Positions 1,479-28,957 of a stretch of 31,782 nucleotides of DNA are shown piece by piece. The stretch is taken from positions 1-31,782 of the IMG/VR virus record IMGVR_UViG_3300025872_000194, one strand, 5' to 3'. The notes under the pieces were generated by a model. The model ran no database searches. It saw only the letters and a list, made by a program, of their open reading frames with translations, and was not told where the DNA came from. A program made the translations under genes and the position numbers. How positions within the stretch are numbered: position 1 is the first letter of the stretch; every line of letters starts with the position of its first letter. This stretch comes from a virus.

Positions 1479-3215
1479 CTAAACCCAGGTGGGGACTGAC
1501 TTCTTACCACTCAGTCCTCTAGCCTTTTGACGTTGATCTAAACTAAAGCCAAAGACTAGGTGATCAGTCGCTGCTTGTGGGTTATCAATGAAGGATTCAA
1601 GGAGGTCTTGCCAGTCTTCTTGCTTCCTCATTTTGACTGTTTCATAGGCAGAGATAGACATAGCGTCTGTGAAATACTTCACACCTTGAGCTAAGCTATC
1701 AAGTCTGTCGTCATGTTTAACAGCTCCCTTTTCCCGACACATTCTACTCATCTGATAGAAGAGCATGTATAGGAGACGCTCTTCTGGTGCTGCTTCTTTA
1801 TTAGAGTTATAGTCCCATTCCACCACGCTACGATCCATGATGAGTCGGTGTTGATTCATCACAGGTTCTAGGGCATCAATGATACGGTCTTCTTTACGAA
1901 CATTAGCCCGTACTTCCTCAACATCTATGGCTTGCTTGGTTTGTTGTAGGTGTTTTTTGAACAGTTCTGCGACGATACCGTCACCGAAGTTGGTTTCGAT
2001 GAGGAGTTTAGTAACATTGTAGCGCTTACACCCACGAAGGATGTCAAGAAGTGTATTGTCGCTATAACCATCGCGATACGCTCGTATTTCGTGAACGTAG
2101 AGGAACCCATTTCTTTGACTGATATATGTAGCTGCTGTCTCGTCTGTACCTCTACCTGATGGGTCTACGGAGCAGATTGTCTCCGTGTATGGCCCCCAAT
2201 CGCCTTGAAGCTGCATCGGGGAGTAGAAGTAATCACCCGGTAGGCCAACCGTAGGCAGATCTTTGAGAACATTACGAGGGTCAGAGCACCACACAACAGC
2301 ATCCGGCGCTTGAGTCGGGTTAACCGAGGTAACGACAAGATCACTGAATTTAAGTGGGAACTTTTCTGCATCACTTAGAGAAGTATCTAATTGGAACTGA
2401 AGCATAAAGTTTGAACGACCCATAGATGCTTCCCGTTCAAGGAGATCATCATTGGTGAAGCGATCAGAGTCTGTTGGGGTCCATTCTTCAGCTCCCATTT
2501 CGATGTCTTCCACAAGTTGAGGAGCGAGTAGTCCTTCATATTGAGAAAGTTTATCTTTGCGGGGATAACGAGAAGTCCAAACAAAAGGTCTGTAGCTACG
2601 TTCAGCTAGTTTACGGTAGATCGTAAAAGTTGTCTGGGGAGTACCCAGGTACATGATGCGACTATCTTTCTTAGGCGTCAGGATGGATTCAGCCTCTGTA
2701 CAAAGTTGTAGAAGCTTTTCTCGCATCAGTTCTGTCATGGAGTTACCAGGAACTTCCACGTCATCCAAGATCATCAGGTCTGCACGGCTACCCGTCAGCT
2801 GACCTGTGATACCGACTGATTTAACAGAAGGTGCTTGGTGAGGAGAACAGTTCACATCAAAGCTGATACGACTCCAGCGAGCTTCATCACTCTTAGGTCT
2901 AAGGTGAGACAGCCAAGGTGTTTCAATGATCAGCTTCTGCAGGAAGATACTCATGTTGTCTGCACGCTCTTTTGAAGCGGAGATGATCATGATCTTCTTC
3001 TCTACATTATTAAACAGGGTCCACAACACAAATGCTCCAGTAATCCAGCTCTTACCGACTCCTCGGAAGGCTTGGATCTGTAGTCGTTTAGGACCGTGTT
3101 GTAGGTAGTCAGCAATTGCGTATTGCGCTCTAGTGGGTGAAGGTAAATCAAGCTGTGCCCACAATGCCTGCAGGAACAGCTTGAAGTCTTCCCTCAACGC
3201 AGTGAGGGTATCCAT
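1479..3215 (-). CDS. terL: terminase large subunit (T7 gp19-like DNA packaging ATPase and nuclease)
   Basis: This motor pumps DNA into the prohead through the portal and cuts the concatemer. The ATPase half has a P-loop at residues 49-56 (AFRGVGKS) and a Walker B at 147-152 (LMILDD). The C-terminal nuclease half has the acidic residues of the RNase H-like fold: D351 in SVDPSGRGTDE, E407 in LLIETNFGDG, and a late Asp in KHDDRLDSL. The length of 578 residues matches T7 gp19 (586). It starts one base after the upstream 115-residue gene ends, which points to coupled translation. The small subunit is 3.4 kb upstream, with six genes between, including two nuclease candidates. Its stop codon lies inside a small hairpin (1476-1491). 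Confidence 0.96.
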   Translation of the reverse strand: MDTLTALREDFKLFLQALWAQLDLPSPTRAQYAIADYLQHGPKRLQIQAFRGVGKSWITGAFVLWTLFNNVEKKIMIISASKERADNMSIFLQKLIIETPWLSHLRPKSDEARWSRISFDVNCSPHQAPSVKSVGITGQLTGSRADLMILDDVEVPGNSMTELMREKLLQLCTEAESILTPKKDSRIMYLGTPQTTFTIYRKLAERSYRPFVWTSRYPRKDKLSQYEGLLAPQLVEDIEMGAEEWTPTDSDRFTNDDLLEREASMGRSNFMLQFQLDTSLSDAEKFPLKFSDLVVTSVNPTQAPDAVVWCSDPRNVLKDLPTVGLPGDYFYSPMQLQGDWGPYTETICSVDPSGRGTDETAATYISQRNGFLYVHEIRAYRDGYSDNTLLDILRGCKRYNVTKLLIETNFGDGIVAELFKKHLQQTKQAIDVEEVRANVRKEDRIIDALEPVMNQHRLIMDRSVVEWDYNSNKEAAPEERLLYMLFYQMSRMCREKGAVKHDDRLDSLAQGVKYFTDAMSISAYETVKMRKQEDWQDLLESFIDNPQAATDHLVFGFSLDQRQKARGLSGKKSVPTWV

Positions 3216-3216
3216 G

Positions 3217-3564
3217 TTAATCAGCGAGCTTTACACCACGACCTGGCATGTATGTGTTGTGGATGCGTTCAATGAGACCAATCTCTTTGACGATATTCCG
3301 CAACTGAACAGCAGGATCGCCAGGCCTGATACGGGTCTTGGGATCATAGGGCTGTCCCAGAATGGCTTCCATATTGAGAGCAGCATTCTTAGAAGGTAAG
3401 AAGCCGTAGCCTGTTTGAGCCCTAGCAATGGGGTTCTTACCGTTTAGATACTTAGGGCTGATATATTTTAGCAGATGTGACAGCACATCATTGGCGCCGT
3501 CTTTTTTAGATACAGCAGCAGATGGACTGCGAGCCGTAGTTACTTTAAGGTTGTTATTTGGCAT
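3217..3564 (-). CDS. hypothetical protein next to large terminase
   Basis: This 115-residue protein of unknown function has a Ser/Ala-rich start, then a likely folded part containing KYLNGKNPIARAQTGYGF and a basic C-terminus with MPGRG. It has no membrane segment or recognised catalytic motif. The start codon overlaps the stop of the 589-residue gene upstream (TAATG), and the stop lies one base before terminase, so all three are probably translated together. Its location suggests a packaging or virion role, but that is inference only. Confidence 0.75.
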   Translation of the reverse strand: MPNNNLKVTTARSPSAAVSKKDGANDVLSHLLKYISPKYLNGKNPIARAQTGYGFLPSKNAALNMEAILGQPYDPKTRIRPGDPAVQLRNIVKEIGLIERIHNTYMPGRGVKLAD

Positions 3565-5333
3565 TAGCGAGGACGTGTGTTAGGACGTTTGCTAGCATCA
3601 GGTACTCCACCCCTTGGATCACGAACAGCAGGTTTAGTGGTTGTAATAGAAGCGCCCCTACCCGACAAATTAGGTTTTAAACGACTGTTGGGGTTTGCTA
3701 CAACTGGTATAGGCAGCCTACTCAAGGTTGCCTGAGTAGTCCGCTGGTTTACATTTGGTCTAACAGGACGCTGATTACCAGTAATAGCACCCATTACTAG
3801 ATCCCAAAACTGGTTTGATTTATCTTTGCTTTCAGCTCTACGACGTTCTTGTGTCGGAAGCGCATTAGATGCATGTGTCGAATCTGCAGTATTACCAGAC
3901 TCAATTATTCCAATAGTATTATCAAGAGTAGTCAAAGCTGCGGCTTCTGCCGGTGAAGCACCACCAGCCATATAGAGGCCAAACCCAGCAATAGCACCAG
4001 CAGTACCTAGTCCAGGAAGACGCCTTGGAGTTCTACCAACTCTGATAGCCGGTGGTTTAGTTGGAATACGTTCAGGTGCTCTTGGTACTACACCTGTGTA
4101 TGGTGTTCGCCCGATTCTAGGTGTATCAAGGTTAGGAGCAGTAACGGTAGGGGGTTGACCTTTTTTCTGTATGGCGAGAATGTGCGGTTTAGGGTTAACC
4201 GGATTGCCGTTGCTATCAAATGTCAAAGAACTTGGCGGTAAAACTTGAGCGTTAGTTATACTGCCAGAGGGGTTCGTTGTGTGAGGACTGAGAGCAGTCC
4301 CCTGTGTAACTCCTTTTTGCAATAGAGATTGATGTTTAGTTAGTCTAGCAGCTTGGCGAGTCTGTGCTGCTTCAATGTCTCGCTCATTGGCCATACCACC
4401 CCTTGAAAAGTCGTAGCCATCTTCAAGAATTCTACGATCTTTAAGCTCAGAAAGTTGATCAAGCTGCTGTTTAATTGTTTCATCCCTATCTAACTGTGAT
4501 CCAAAAAGAGCACCAATGCGGTCGGATCTTGGTTTTCCATCTCGCTCAAACTCTTGAATGCGTTGCGATATTAACCTATCTCTGATAGTTGCTCTGTCAG
4601 ATTCATTAGCTCCATTTGAAATTGCCTGAAGATCGGCTTCAGTGAGATACTGAGATCCGGTTACATTAAGATTGTTGTTGACTAGATCCCACTCATGAAA
4701 GTCGCTTAACCAACCGTAGGATGCACGACTGGTTTTACTTACTTCTTTAATATCCCCTCTAGGATCAGCACCTCTAAATCTATTTAGATCAGCGATTTCA
4801 TTGTTACCTGCTCGTTTGCTTTCAGCACCTCCAAATTTATTAGCTAGCCAATGACCTCGATCAAAAGCAATTCCAGTTTCCGATTGAAGTTGCTGATTTT
4901 CAAGATTCATCAACTTCCACTCTTGTCTAACTGCCTTAGTGTACAGGTCAGCCGTTTTTACCCCGTATGTTTTACGAATATAATCGTAAACAGGTGGAGG
5001 TAACCCCCCATCTGCTGACATGTATTTTCTAGTATTGATTTTTACGCGACCAGTTTCTTTATCTACAGACAACGGTGGTCCTTGATAATTAACTTTAAAA
5101 GCGTTAGCTTCAAGTTGTTTTGAAGTGAACCTTTTGCCTGATTTATCTATAACAGCCTGAGCCGCTAATAGTAAATCTTCCTTTGACTTAATCCCAGGAG
5201 GCAACTTACCAGAACGATAATAATAGTCAAAAATAGTATTAGTTCCTTCTGGCGTAGAAAAATTGGCATTTGCCGCATTTAGAATGTAACTTGGAAGTTC
5301 AGTTCTATTTGGTATAGGCTTGACAGTAACCAT
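3564..5333 (-). CDS. large protein with DRGH nuclease-like core and disordered tail, function unknown
   Basis: No family is recognised over the full 589 residues. At 158-168 there is DRGHWLANKFG, followed by NNEIADLNRF at 177-186. A DRGH or RGH motif, then GG, then a conserved Asn is the pattern of beta-beta-alpha-metal nucleases of the DNA/RNA non-specific endonuclease group, so H161 and N184 are candidate catalytic and metal-site residues. This is motif-level evidence only. Residues 1-230 look folded, 230-340 are charged and helical, 340-440 are proline-rich, 441-468 form a Gly/Ala-rich hydrophobic stretch that could cross a membrane, and the rest is low-complexity and basic. It follows a strong terminator (5341-5366), so it probably has its own promoter or relies on read-through. 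It sits between the small and large terminase genes. The gene looks AT-richer than its neighbours, which hints at recent acquisition. Alternatives are a virion protein delivered to the host, or a packaging nuclease. Confidence 0.7.
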   Translation of the reverse strand: MVTVKPIPNRTELPSYILNAANANFSTPEGTNTIFDYYYRSGKLPPGIKSKEDLLLAAQAVIDKSGKRFTSKQLEANAFKVNYQGPPLSVDKETGRVKINTRKYMSADGGLPPPVYDYIRKTYGVKTADLYTKAVRQEWKLMNLENQQLQSETGIAFDRGHWLANKFGGAESKRAGNNEIADLNRFRGADPRGDIKEVSKTSRASYGWLSDFHEWDLVNNNLNVTGSQYLTEADLQAISNGANESDRATIRDRLISQRIQEFERDGKPRSDRIGALFGSQLDRDETIKQQLDQLSELKDRRILEDGYDFSRGGMANERDIEAAQTRQAARLTKHQSLLQKGVTQGTALSPHTTNPSGSITNAQVLPPSSLTFDSNGNPVNPKPHILAIQKKGQPPTVTAPNLDTPRIGRTPYTGVVPRAPERIPTKPPAIRVGRTPRRLPGLGTAGAIAGFGLYMAGGASPAEAAALTTLDNTIGIIESGNTADSTHASNALPTQERRRAESKDKSNQFWDLVMGAITGNQRPVRPNVNQRTTQATLSRLPIPVVANPNSRLKPNLSGRGASITTTKPAVRDPRGGVPDASKRPNTRPR

Positions 5334-5340
5334 TTCTCAT

Positions 5341-5366
5341 AAAAAAACCACCCCTTGCGGAGCGGC
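5341..5366 (-). terminator. rho-independent terminator after the Lys/Pro-rich gene
   Basis: On the minus strand a 7-pair stem (complement of 5359-5365 with 5348-5354, including two G-U pairs) closes a GCAA tetraloop (5355-5358) and is followed directly by seven U's (5341-5347). It lies 24 bases past the stop of the 222-residue gene and just before the 589-residue gene, so it separates the lysis/small-terminase/HNH unit from the DRGH-protein/large-terminase unit. Confidence 0.85.
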
Positions 5367-5389
5367 TTATACGCATATGTACAGGTTGA

Positions 5390-6058
5390 TCAATCAAGAC
5401 CCATCCGACGACGCCTCATACGCTCAGCAAGAGTCATACCCTTGCTCGCTTTATTAGGCTCAGACGGTGAAGCTGGAGAAGCAGGCTTGGCAGGTTCAGC
5501 CTTACCAGCGCTATATCCAGGACCCATGTAACGAGCACCACTAGGGGAAACGTACTTGCTCTTATCTTCAGGAGTGCTGTAGTTCTTTGCGGGCTTTGGC
5601 TTCAGGTCCTCTGAAGTGAGATTGCTACGCCCTTGTTGACGAGACATAGAAGTAGCACCCATACGAGCTGTCTCTTCTTTGAACTTAGAGACATAACTAC
5701 CTTTATAATTCTTGTCTTGATTCTTCATTCCTGCATCAGCCTTAGGAGCGCTAGCAGGGGCCTTCTCTGTAGGCTTTGGAGGTGTAGACCTAACAGCAGG
5801 TTTAGGGGCACTAGAGGGGCTAGGAGAGGGCTTTGGTGAGGGTTTAGCCTTCGGCTTACCTGCATTAGGGTCTCCAGTCCATCCACCACTCGTCCTAAAT
5901 TCAGGATCCCTCTTAGATTCAGGTGTAGCTGGAACCTTGGCAGCAGGTTTAGCCTTCGGCTTAGAGGCTTTAGGGTTAGTGCGACGACCAGCACCAGCAG
6001 TTGTACGCAGTGAAAAGGTCGCACTATTTTGACCTGTTCGTTTTTTGTTAGATGCCAT
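5390..6058 (-). CDS. Lys/Pro/Ala-rich, probably disordered basic protein
   Basis: These 222 residues are dominated by Lys, Pro, Ala and Ser, with repeated KPKAKP blocks near residues 33-38 and 68-73. An 18-base repeat underlies them (5841-5858 and 5946-5963). The N-terminus (MASNKKRTGQNSATFSLR) and C-terminus (LAERMRRRRMGLD) are strongly basic. There is no signal peptide, membrane segment or enzyme motif. The composition suggests an intrinsically disordered nucleic-acid-binding or virion protein, comparable in style to histone-like tails. It starts in a TAATG overlap with the HNH gene stop and ends before a strong terminator, so it closes that operon. The function is unknown. Confidence 0.7.
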   Translation of the reverse strand: MASNKKRTGQNSATFSLRTTAGAGRRTNPKASKPKAKPAAKVPATPESKRDPEFRTSGGWTGDPNAGKPKAKPSPKPSPSPSSAPKPAVRSTPPKPTEKAPASAPKADAGMKNQDKNYKGSYVSKFKEETARMGATSMSRQQGRSNLTSEDLKPKPAKNYSTPEDKSKYVSPSGARYMGPGYSAGKAEPAKPASPASPSEPNKASKGMTLAERMRRRRMGLD

Positions 6059-6384
6059 TATTCAATGTGCGATAAAATAAGGTTTTCTCTATTGGTAATT
6101 CCAAAAGTGGCTCTCATCCATTGGAGCCAGTTGTTACTTCCCTTAGCCTGATTACATGAACGGCAGGACGGAACAAGGTTCTTGGTAAAAGAAGCTCCGC
6201 CATAACAGCGAGGCTTAACGTGATCAAGAGTAAGTTCATCAGGTTCATAAGTGTTACCACAATAGACACATTGATTATTGAAGTGTTCCTTAATAGCGCG
6301 TCTCCAAAGACGCTTTGCTTCGGGACTTGTCATGGCTATTAGGTTGTGTAGGTAGTAATCAGGTTCAGGGAAGAGAGGCGTCAT
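6058..6384 (-). CDS. HNH endonuclease
   Basis: A 108-residue HNH nuclease with the usual zinc-knuckle arrangement: CVYC at residues 39-42, LDH at 53-55, N69 in the KNL segment, and CRSC at 74-77 followed by NQAKG. D54-H55 and N78 are candidate active-site residues. It may be a free-standing homing-type enzyme or a packaging helper. HNH proteins next to terminase genes are needed for DNA packaging in HK97-like phages, and its position between the small and large terminase genes suits that idea. The start overlaps the previous stop (ATGA) and the stop overlaps the next start (TAATG), so it is embedded in an operon rather than inserted as a selfish unit. Confidence 0.9.
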   Translation of the reverse strand: MTPLFPEPDYYLHNLIAMTSPEAKRLWRRAIKEHFNNQCVYCGNTYEPDELTLDHVKPRCYGGASFTKNLVPSCRSCNQAKGSNNWLQWMRATFGITNRENLILSHIE

Positions 6385-6635
6385 GCGTACTTCTTGCCAG
6401 TTCTTGGTCGTTTACGGTTAGATGTTGGTTTCTCAAGCTTGCCTTTGTTAGGGCCTGTGTGAGAAGCATCCATTCCATCGCCATTTCCGTATGTTCCAAG
6501 TTTCCTGTTAAGCTTGTTTGCTGCAGTGCGAATCTTGAGACCTTCTTTGGTCTTGTTATATTTAGCCTGTTGCTTCAGACGCTTAGCTCTTGCTTCAGGG
6601 TTTTGCTTATAGTATTCAGCTGTAGACCTTGCCAT
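6381..6635 (-). CDS. small basic phage protein paired with the HNH gene
   Basis: 84 residues, rich in Lys, Arg and Asn, starting MARSTAEYYKQNPEARAKRL, with a GTYGNGDGMDASH segment near the middle and NRKRPRTGKKYA at the end. I recall similar short proteins directly upstream of HNH genes in cyanophages and other phages, but no function. The start overlaps the end of the small terminase gene by 20 bases and is preceded by AGAGG five bases before the ATG. The stop overlaps the HNH start (ATGA). A nucleic-acid-binding role is likely from composition only. Confidence 0.75.
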   Translation of the reverse strand: MARSTAEYYKQNPEARAKRLKQQAKYNKTKEGLKIRTAANKLNRKLGTYGNGDGMDASHTGPNKGKLEKPTSNRKRPRTGKKYA

Positions 6636-6867
6636 ACAACCTCTTCTGTACTAGCTCCGGATCTATCTTTGGCATGATGGTGGCCAGCTTATCCAGTGGA
6701 TTACCGTCATATGCAACACCACTGATGTCATTTTTAGAGAGCCAGTCACACGCTGCTTTTAGGTCAGCAGTAGAGGCTTCACCGGATTTAATCCGATTAA
6801 GTAGCTCTTGCGTGACCATATTATGGAGTTCATTGAACATGTCCTCCGTTGCTTTCTTGTTAGCCAT
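6616..6867 (-). CDS. terS: terminase small subunit-like protein (T7 gp18 / DNA maturase A type)
   Basis: 83 residues, starting MANKKATEDMFNELHNMVTQ, helical and charged, with SGEASTADLKAACDWLSKN and then a short turn-rich end. The length and the N-terminal ATEDMF.ELH pattern followed by a helix with LK.A..WL resemble the small packaging subunit of T7-like phages (gp18, 89 residues). This subunit recognises concatemer DNA and hands it to the large terminase. The gene overlaps the membrane-anchored coiled-coil gene upstream by 8 bases and the small basic gene downstream by 20 bases. In T7, gp18 and gp19 are separated only by lysis genes; here six genes separate the two subunits. The assignment is by similarity in size, style and position, so it is moderately firm. 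Confidence 0.7.
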   Translation of the reverse strand: MANKKATEDMFNELHNMVTQELLNRIKSGEASTADLKAACDWLSKNDISGVAYDGNPLDKLATIMPKIDPELVQKRLYGKVYS

Positions 6868-19249: not shown

Positions 19250-20329
19250 TTAGACTAATTGCATGTTTACGTCAATAAGGTCGTAGTTGACTTGATAGTA
19301 ACCACTCTCATGAACTGACACAGCTTCAGGATGACTGGTTAAAAGTTCTTGTGCAATAACACCTCTGTATCGTTGGGGATCGTTAATATAGTTAAATTCA
19401 TAGATATTTATTCCACTCTCTGATTTCCCAACCTTAATGATATTCTCTTTCAGCTGTTGATCAGAGAGTAGACTGGCGACACTTAGGCCAACCTGAGCAA
19501 TACCCATGATGGTACTAGCCGTATTATCTGTCCGTTGAGTCTTAGGAGGCTTCGGTGGCCTCTTAGGCCTTTGAGGATCTTGAAAGATAGTTGCCGGCAG
19601 CGGAATAGGTTTGGGCAGTGCAGGACTAATCTCAGGCCTGAGCATACGGTTGGCTTCAGCTTGCAGATCAGCACCGTACTTATCTGTACCAATCTTCTTG
19701 ATATTCACCTTATGCTGTTTCTCTGCTGAGTAGAGTGATTCAGCAAGGATGGCTTGATTCCTACCAGCTTGAGCTAATACAGCTTGTATTGTCTTTCCTG
19801 CAGACCGGCCAGCCTGCCCCATCGCTGTAGCCCTACCTTCTTCTTGCAGCATCTGAACAAAGAGGTCTTGGTTCTTAAAGGCTGTCTCTTTGAACCGCTC
19901 ATCCAACCATCTATCTTCAGATTCCATGGCTACCTGAGCAGCCATATTATTGAAGTTTAGCTGTTGCCTATAAGTCTGTTCCGACTTATTGTAGGCACGC
20001 ATCTGGTTCTTGTACTCATAATCACGGATTGCCATTCCGTGTTGCCAATCTCTATTGGCTGTTTCATCCCTCCAAGCACGTTCGTTAGCATCGTTAGTAC
20101 GTGCAATAGCTACGCCTTTCTTGGCATACCTATAGTCACGCTTCATCTCCTTCCAGTTGTATTTATCCAGGGCGGAGTTGTAGGCATCAGATGCTGAGGC
20201 GGCAGCATTGTTGTAGTTCTGCTGTTGAATACCCCCAAACACGTTGCCAACGCTTTGAGCTATGTCCCCAGCAGTGCTCCAGCCAGAACCACCCGCTCCC
20301 CAACGACTAGGTGTTGTAGTAGCTGTCAT
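19250..20329 (-). CDS. internal virion protein, gp14-like, with C-terminal S74 self-cleaving chaperone domain
   Basis: 359 residues. The N-terminal part is Ala/Gln-rich and helical (GNVFGGIQQQNYNNAAASAS, then a long charged helix), fitting the small internal virion protein gp14 of T7 (196 residues) by position. A Pro/Lys-rich linker at about 235-265 leads to the final 71 residues, which match peptidase S74: SDQQLKENI at 289-297 with S289 and K294, then YEFNYI and YRGVIAQELL and a closing VNYD. S74 domains fold trimeric phage spikes and then cut themselves off at the Ser of this motif. One on an internal core protein is unusual and suggests that it assembles as a trimer or higher oligomer before maturation. 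It lies three bases after tail tube B. Confidence 0.82.
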   Translation of the reverse strand: MTATTTPSRWGAGGSGWSTAGDIAQSVGNVFGGIQQQNYNNAAASASDAYNSALDKYNWKEMKRDYRYAKKGVAIARTNDANERAWRDETANRDWQHGMAIRDYEYKNQMRAYNKSEQTYRQQLNFNNMAAQVAMESEDRWLDERFKETAFKNQDLFVQMLQEEGRATAMGQAGRSAGKTIQAVLAQAGRNQAILAESLYSAEKQHKVNIKKIGTDKYGADLQAEANRMLRPEISPALPKPIPLPATIFQDPQRPKRPPKPPKTQRTDNTASTIMGIAQVGLSVASLLSDQQLKENIIKVGKSESGINIYEFNYINDPQRYRGVIAQELLTSHPEAVSVHESGYYQVNYDLIDVNMQLV

Positions 20330-26317: not shown

Positions 26318-26650
26318 TTAGTTTAGACGAGTTACTTTAATCCGTCCAACACCAGAGTCAGTGAGACCGATAGCATCAGCCGCACCTTTACTAAGATCGA
26401 TCTCTCTTCCAGGAATGAAAGGGCCACGATCTGTTACCCGTACAATGGCACACCTCTGGTAGCAGACCCGAAGTCTTGTACCGAAGGGGAGTGTCTTGTG
26501 CGCTGCAGTAAGGGCTTGTTGATTGTACCGTTCGCCATTAGCAGTGAGGCGACCATGGAAACCAGGGCCATACCATGAACTAATGACTGACAGAGTTGTT
26601 AGGATAGGAATCATGATAAGATAGCAAAGAACATTCTTATCTCCGTCCAC
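26318..26650 (-). CDS. RlpA-like double-psi beta-barrel protein, probably exported
   Basis: 110 residues. An N-terminal hydrophobic segment ([18 protein letters not shown], residues 7-24) is a likely signal peptide. The rest is a double-psi beta-barrel of the RlpA family: [41 protein letters not shown] at 71-78 and [11 protein letters not shown]. RlpA proteins bind, and in some bacteria cut, peptidoglycan; candidate active residues E40 and D74 are kept. The SPOR domain of full RlpA is absent. The GTG start lies within a few bases of a terminator stem, so the ATG at residue 13 is a possible alternative. It sits directly before psbA between two terminators. It may act on the host wall before or at lysis, or change it during infection; this is inference. 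Confidence 0.85.
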
Positions 26651-28399: not shown

Positions 28400-28957
28400 T
28401 TAGTTATGTTGAACAGAAATACCACCAGACACCCAACCCTTCTGGGGAGGTGCTGACTCTCCTACATGTTGAACCCTGCCGGGTGGTCCCATTGGACCGG
28501 CTGGACCGGGCTTTCCTTGCACCCCAGGGGGACCTTGAATGCCTTGAATTCCTTGCGGCCCACGTGGCCCCACAGCTCCATCCTTTCCATCCTCTCCGTC
28601 ATATCCAGGTTCACCTTGTGGGCCAATCATGGATACACCTACTGGCCAACCTTCAGCAGTCTTCGGACCGTAGATTGTCCAGTGAACGTAGTCAATGTAG
28701 AAGGCACCTACAGGCCCCAGGAAGGGGGATGGTGGGGTTGTCCCGCTAAGGATACCCACACCATCTTCCCCGTTCCTTCCGGAGGCCCCTGGAGGCCCCT
28801 GATCGCCTTTCTCTCCTTTAGGACCCCGCTCCCCTTGGATACCTTGGGGTCCTTGTTCTCCATCATATCCAGGTTCTCCAGGTTCACCGGGAGGACCGGG
28901 TGGTGAATACTCAGGTGCAAACGAGAAGCACCCATTGATTGGGTTTAGACGGAACAT
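28400..28957 (-). CDS. collagen-like virion protein
   Basis: 185 residues. Two Gly-X-Y blocks (residues 19-67 and 112-160) flank a short non-collagen part (68-111) with PSPFLGPVGAFYIDYVHW and TIYGPKTAEGWP, a segment often found between collagen blocks in bacterial and phage proteins. Triplets include GPPGEPGEPG and GPQGIQGIQGPPG. It would form a triple-helical trimeric stalk on the virion. The C-terminal 25 residues (VGESAPPQKGWVSGGI) may be a trimer seed. The start overlaps the upstream stop by one base (TAATG). Confidence 0.92.
   Translation of the reverse strand: MFRLNPINGCFSFAPEYSPPGPPGEPGEPGYDGEQGPQGIQGERGPKGEKGDQGPPGASGRNGEDGVGILSGTTPPSPFLGPVGAFYIDYVHWTIYGPKTAEGWPVGVSMIGPQGEPGYDGEDGKDGAVGPRGPQGIQGIQGPPGVQGKPGPAGPMGPPGRVQHVGESAPPQKGWVSGGISVQHN

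Follow-up and report, generated by a model that had tools for sequence, protein, structure and literature searches.

What does a large protein with a nuclease-like core do between the terminase subunits of a T7-like cyanophage? The question is raised by P0001, a 589-residue protein encoded in a virus record of 31,782 bases (IMG/VR IMGVR_UViG_3300025872_000194), the whole of which was analysed and is called the window here. The window holds T7-like head, tail and internal virion genes, the genes of the small and large terminase subunits (TerS and TerL), thyX, and a psbA gene recognized from its sequence; it is therefore a fragment of a T7-like picocyanophage genome. A preliminary description, made from the DNA letters alone, had drawn attention to the gene. 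The open reading frame that it gave, 589 codons on the minus strand, is real and has exactly those limits (Table 1), the gene does lie between TerS and TerL, and the residue numbering is exact for D158-R159-G160-H161 (in DRGHWLANKFG), G168-G169 and N177-N178-E179-I180-A181-D182-L183-N184.

The gene and its neighbourhood

In relatives that cover the region, the gene order is TerS, a small gene, a 108-aa HNH gene, often o222, the slot gene, often o115, TerL and thyX. The slot is the space between the HNH gene and TerL, and P0001 is its occupant in the window. The stop codon of the P0001 gene meets the start of o115, and the end of o115 adjoins TerL; for this reason the three genes are read from their arrangement as one unit, in agreement with the earlier proposal that P0001 and TerL are in one unit. 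The C-terminal end of o222 is conserved.

Table 1. Positions in the window of P0001, its parts and the genes and elements around it

Feature	Position	Strand	Basis or remark
TerL (terminase large subunit), downstream border of slot	1479..3215	-	phrog_38, E=1.4e-116
o115, small gene	3217..3564	-	start codon shares one base with the stop of the P0001 gene
Slot protein P0001, 589 aa	3564..5333	-	N-terminal helical part, nuclease core, proline-rich linker, Gly/Ala hydrophobic segment, basic tail
Basic tail, probably disordered, residues 520-589	3567..3776	-	sequence itself
LPGLGTAGAIAGFGLYMAG, residues 439-457, 19-residue stretch of top hydrophobicity inside C-terminal module	3963..4019	-	
Nuclease core (predicted), residues 84-245	4599..5084	-	HMM region, alignment, model
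N184 codon	4782..4784	-	31/32 aligned relatives and P-SSP7 gp50
H161 codon	4851..4853	-	invariant in 32/32 aligned relatives and P-SSP7 gp50
N-terminal helical region, residues 1-82	5088..5333	-	model pLDDT about 80-90 at residues 12-80
Terminator-like hairpin 5' of the P0001 gene, 10 pairs and T run	5345..5368	-	hairpin scan
o222, basic low-complexity protein, upstream border of slot	5390..6058	-	found with and without a slot protein
Conserved 108-aa HNH endonuclease, probably packaging-associated	6058..6384	-	
TerS (terminase small subunit)	6616..6867	-	phrog_891

A strong terminator had also been described upstream of the gene. The hairpin at 5368-5345 is indeed the longest stem in the region scanned, but a similar one lies upstream in only 9 of 55 relatives, and a conserved upstream terminator was accordingly rejected as a component of the system. 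An 18-base element close to AACCTGTMCACWTRAGTA occurs as a single copy in the window at 5370-5387 (minus strand), just 5' of the hairpin, and similar sequences lie 5' of the slot gene in about a dozen relatives.

Several other genes of the window, all on the minus strand, were noted. That at 19250-20329 encodes a probable internal virion or ejection protein. Several families of tail fibre and structural proteins have C-terminal segments that match its own C-terminal part (about residues 264-356), an ending that is unusual for an ejection protein. Beside psbA, a gene at 26318-26650 encodes a small septal-ring/RlpA-like protein, with similar annotated genes in S-CBP3 and S-SRP01. A collagen-like protein with Gly-X-Y repeats is encoded at 28400-28957.

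Occupancy and variety of the slot

The slot was compared among loci chosen by similarity to the window's TerL (the TerL survey plus the relatives), a set that includes related contigs and many fragments. One large protein occupies the slot in 58 loci, and no large gene of this kind is found in 28 others. These 28 loci have a complete slot with HNH and TerL intact; the idea that the slot is always filled was therefore rejected, and the slot protein is dispensable.

When isolates are included, 63 distinct slot proteins are available. Searches with a hidden Markov model placed 37 of them in the nuclease superfamily of P0001, and the remaining 26 carry other N-terminal domains in about 13 groups. 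The dipeptide HH, such as is found in HNH nucleases, occurs in 8 of 14 representatives of these other domains, for which shuffled sequences give an expectation of 1.4 and a maximum of 6 in 2000 shuffles. Judged by this motif, the other N-terminal domains may also be nucleases, HNH-like for the most part. The locus between the HNH gene and TerL is polymorphic: it is either empty or holds one protein with an interchangeable N-terminal domain. No description of this locus was found in the literature searched, although that search was incomplete and is no proof of novelty.

Related arrangements were seen elsewhere. In cyanophage 9515-10a (L125, 1591-3312, minus strand), a protein of 573 aa whose C-terminal hydrophobic motif is similar is encoded downstream, not upstream, of TerL; talC lies between HNH and TerL, and the locus seems to have moved. 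Small HNH-like zinc-finger proteins are encoded in or beside the same slot in S-RIP1 (L010, 2668-3060, plus strand), where the protein carries MDCHYCGAPATTKDHIIPI, and in S-CBP4 (L006, 3173-3373, minus strand). These zinc-finger proteins are possibly further slot variants or remnants.

The nuclease-like core

Relatives of the core comprised the isolates S-B28, 7B11-B and DSL-LC07 together with IMG/VR contigs, and distant members were added by a TerL-based survey of 80 loci and a profile search. The alignment has 32 rows, 31 of them distinct, whose identity to P0001 is about 16-54%. R102, G160 and H161 are invariant in all 32 cores, G95, E179 and N184 are kept in 31, and W139 and G168 in 30. 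At about 20% overall identity, the best-conserved positions are residues of the catalytic type. In close pairs, dN/dS of the N-terminal domain is 0.07-0.19, indicating purifying selection. The claim of a DRGH nuclease-like core stands for GH and for the downstream N184, but not for D158 (16/32) and R159 (19/32), which are not conserved. By this alignment DRGH is a local form of a GH motif, and the working motif is G-H ... E ... N with R102 and W139 upstream. Loss of H161 or N184 across homologues, named beforehand as the finding that would count against a nuclease, was not seen.

An AlphaFold model built with 32 diverse sequences (pLDDT 71, pTM 0.67, a moderate confidence) predicts a strand at 157-161 that ends in GH, with H161 at its end, a second strand at 176-180, and a helix at 181-187 in which N184 sits. 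This predicted order of elements is that of beta-beta-alpha-metal nucleases, as had been proposed from the spacing of the motifs. In a first model, built with 15 close sequences, confidence in the core was low and the fold search had no meaning. With the second model, the best Foldseek match had E 0.57 and was not significant, Cas9 HNH chains recurring among the weak top hits; VIA-align gave Z of at most 2.2 and nothing significant. The lack of a match in these two comparisons is no evidence against the fold.

Scans of the protein and its relatives against Pfam, PHROG, NCBIfam and PADLOC gave no usable family match, the Pfam DNA/RNA non-specific endonuclease (DRGH) families gave no profile match, and a search of the sequence against solved structures gave chance hits only. 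No relative was found in the plasmids scanned, nor in bacterial genomes and 299 genomes of the order of a Synechococcus, a scan that had no positive control and shows little. Because of the invariant R102, G160 and H161, the retention of E179 and of N184 in 31 cores each, and the predicted strand-strand-helix order, residues about 84-245 are likely to belong to the beta-beta-alpha-metal (His-Me finger/HNH-like) nuclease superfamily. The gene product is probably a DNA- or RNA-cutting enzyme.

Nucleases of the Serratia/NucA (DRGH) type carry G-H on a strand, Asn on the following helix and a conserved Arg upstream. By its conserved residues and its predicted model, P0001 has these three features in common with them. 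It differs in the lack of a detectable sequence match, in the unconserved D and R of DRGH, and in its spacing, with a long helix between R102 and H161.

The core profile also hits, at 7e-21, an uncharacterized protein of the model phage P-SSP7, gp50 (PSSP7_050), which retains R, W, GH, E and N and is encoded in the corresponding slot. A homologous core with these residues is likewise present in the proteins that S-B28, 7B11-B and DSL-LC07 encode between HNH and TerL and that, as with gp50, are annotated as hypothetical or uncharacterized. Unlike P0001, gp50 and the proteins of the three isolates have other C-terminal modules, and D158/R159 are replaced (HRGH, DIGH). In the GenBank record of P-SSP7, the sole feature of the whole genome marked 'genomic PCR only' covers gp50 residues 26-256, including the motif region. 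A stretch absent from an E. coli clone library would fit toxicity of the product, of which this annotation alone is no proof.

Exchange of N-terminal cassettes and C-terminal modules

In 47 pairs of slot proteins, which include near-duplicates and are not independent, the C-terminal modules are 55-98% identical and the N-terminal domains are unrelated. Converse pairs, with an N-terminal domain in common and different C-terminal modules, were also found. The clearest limits come from two loci of different metagenomes, L057 and L059. Their identity is 99.6% over 1.83 kb, a stretch that runs to about seven bases beyond the start codon, and 99.7% over 3.08 kb beginning at L057 residue 562. Over a total flank of 4.9 kb at 99.6-99.7% identity, the difference is confined exactly to the N-terminal cassette, which is of an RGHG type with 561 residues in one locus and of an unrelated HHKVQ type with 355 residues in the other. 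The cassette extends from the start codon to a point inside the gene at which the frame is kept. The pairs L028/L049 and L117/L113 repeat this pattern at lower flank identity. The pattern is cassette exchange inside a reading frame.

The C-terminal modules are Gly/Ala-hydrophobic and not evidently DNA-binding. Hydrophobicity peaks in the C-terminal half of 56 of the 63 slot proteins, but a KD19 of 1.6, which is transmembrane-like, is reached in only 12, and the hydrophobic segments are weak. We infer that the C-terminal module contacts the membrane or the virion. With swapped N-terminal domains on hydrophobic C-terminal modules that different slot proteins share, the architecture is nearer to that of an effector than to that of a packaging factor, as the preliminary description had suggested.

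Homologues of o115 were found in 29 of the 58 loci with a slot protein and in none of the 28 without one (Fisher P=5e-7, uncorrected for relatedness). The identity of o115 tracks the C-terminal module (0.66) and not the type of N-terminal domain (0.57 against 0.56), a correlation that physical linkage alone could explain. A role as cognate immunity gene was rejected for o115, since its similarity does not follow nuclease type and some loci with a slot protein lack it. This small protein is the better candidate for the part of an adaptor or chaperone.

Comparison with known systems

The nearest concept is that of the MuF polymorphic toxins of temperate phages, in which a variable toxin domain is encoded near packaging genes and delivery with the genome has been proposed (PMC5576092). 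Like these, the slot proteins would be phage-encoded effectors with a variable domain and packaging genes close by. In MuF toxins the MuF domain is N-terminal and conserved and the C-terminus varies, and none that carries a known toxin domain was found in virulent phages (PMC5576092). In contrast, no slot protein scanned against Pfam matched the MuF domain, the phages are T7-like, and the domain exchange seen here concerns the N-terminal, putatively toxic domain. Classical polymorphic toxins are accompanied by an immunity gene whose variation matches that of the toxin domain; o115 does not vary in this way, and no other such gene is evident at the locus.

The polyvalent proteins of phages and conjugative elements are multidomain, conflict-related proteins with predicted injection alongside phage DNA (PMC5512222). 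The idea of injected conflict proteins is common to both, but the architecture is different: the slot protein carries one nuclease-like domain, joined to a hydrophobic module of low complexity, and does not combine disparate catalytic domains. HNH partners of terminase of the HK97 gp74 type resemble the slot protein as HNH-like nucleases beside terminase. However, the 108-aa HNH protein fits that role better than the slot protein, which is large, varies among phages and is dispensable.

Function of the slot proteins

The best reading of P0001, at a probability of about 0.6, is as an allele of a polymorphic locus for nuclease effectors in lytic T7-like picocyanophages, with a role in conflict. 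A slot where nuclease heads swap on common tails suggests a weapon in conflict and not an ordinary packaging part, and the independent exchange of cassette and C-terminal module suggests an arms race. In the proposed mechanism, H161 would activate water in the nuclease core and N184 would help to hold a metal, with R102 in support of the transition state. The interchangeable Gly/Ala-hydrophobic module would interact with membrane or virion, and it and the N-terminal nuclease cassette would be exchanged independently among phages. Made late, the nuclease would most likely be aimed at the host or a competing phage. It would either travel in the particle and leave it together with the genome, or stay at the membrane of the infected cell.

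Delivery with the virion and exclusion inside the cell are the two main versions of this reading, and the first of them is plausible. The fuller proposal, that lytic T7-like cyanophages including P-SSP7 package polymorphic nuclease effectors, eject them via a swappable, membrane-active C-terminal module and have some protection of their own against them, is tentative and has less than even odds. A segment of a 1159-aa Campylobacter-phage protein shows homology (shuffle z about 17-18) to the C-terminal module of gp50 (residues 440-541); that Campylobacter-phage protein is annotated as a membrane protein and encoded beside a possible tail-tube-cap gene. In Syn5, the same slot holds gp53, gp54 and gp58, annotated as structural proteins.

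It is rather doubtful that the nuclease acts solely inside the cell, produced late, tethered to the membrane through its C-terminal module and cutting the incoming DNA of competitors without being packaged. Such an exclusion nuclease would account for the late-gene position and for the C-terminal placing of the hydrophobicity peak, and diversification would suit competition between phages; however, no self-protection factor was identified at the locus, the membrane location is itself presumed, and the virion proteins in the Syn5 slot lean towards the particle.

The slot might instead be a hot spot that draws selfish HNH-like genes, its variety being turnover of no benefit to the phage. Homing-type nuclease genes do cluster near terminase genes in phages (PMC10448857), and some loci are without the gene. 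This explanation is unlikely, since the exchange cuts inside the reading frame and leaves a common C-terminal module in frame, which is not the usual form of homing, and since these modules are not evidently DNA-binding, the linked o115 is found only with slot proteins, and each of the 7 records with a match holds a single copy.

A nuclease that processes concatemers as an HNH-like partner of terminase, in the style of HK97 gp74, would fit the position directly before TerL, and such partners are known (PMC10448857). It is nevertheless improbable here. A separate conserved 108-aa HNH already adjoins the slot in nearly all relatives, slot proteins are about 27-44% identical to relatives where TerL is 81-93% identical, and unrelated N-terminal domains coexist with near-identical TerL. 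In place of conservation with terminase, 28 loci with intact HNH and TerL do without the slot protein. Finally, the nuclease-like region could be a remnant in a virion protein of the decoration or internal core that is catalytically dead or serves structure alone. This would suit the structural proteins of the Syn5 slot and the long low-complexity regions, but is most improbable given that residues of the catalytic type are the best conserved.

Significance

T7-like cyanophages are widespread and infect primary producers of aquatic environments, and a hypervariable nuclease locus with a homologue in the laboratory model P-SSP7 points to a molecular conflict hidden under the label 'hypothetical protein'. 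Whether these nucleases are ejected with genomes, and whether their alleles decide the outcome of co-infection or the host range, can be tested with existing isolates. If the nucleases are delivered with the virion, this arsenal would be a counterpart of the polymorphic toxins in reversed order, directed against hosts or co-infecting phages.
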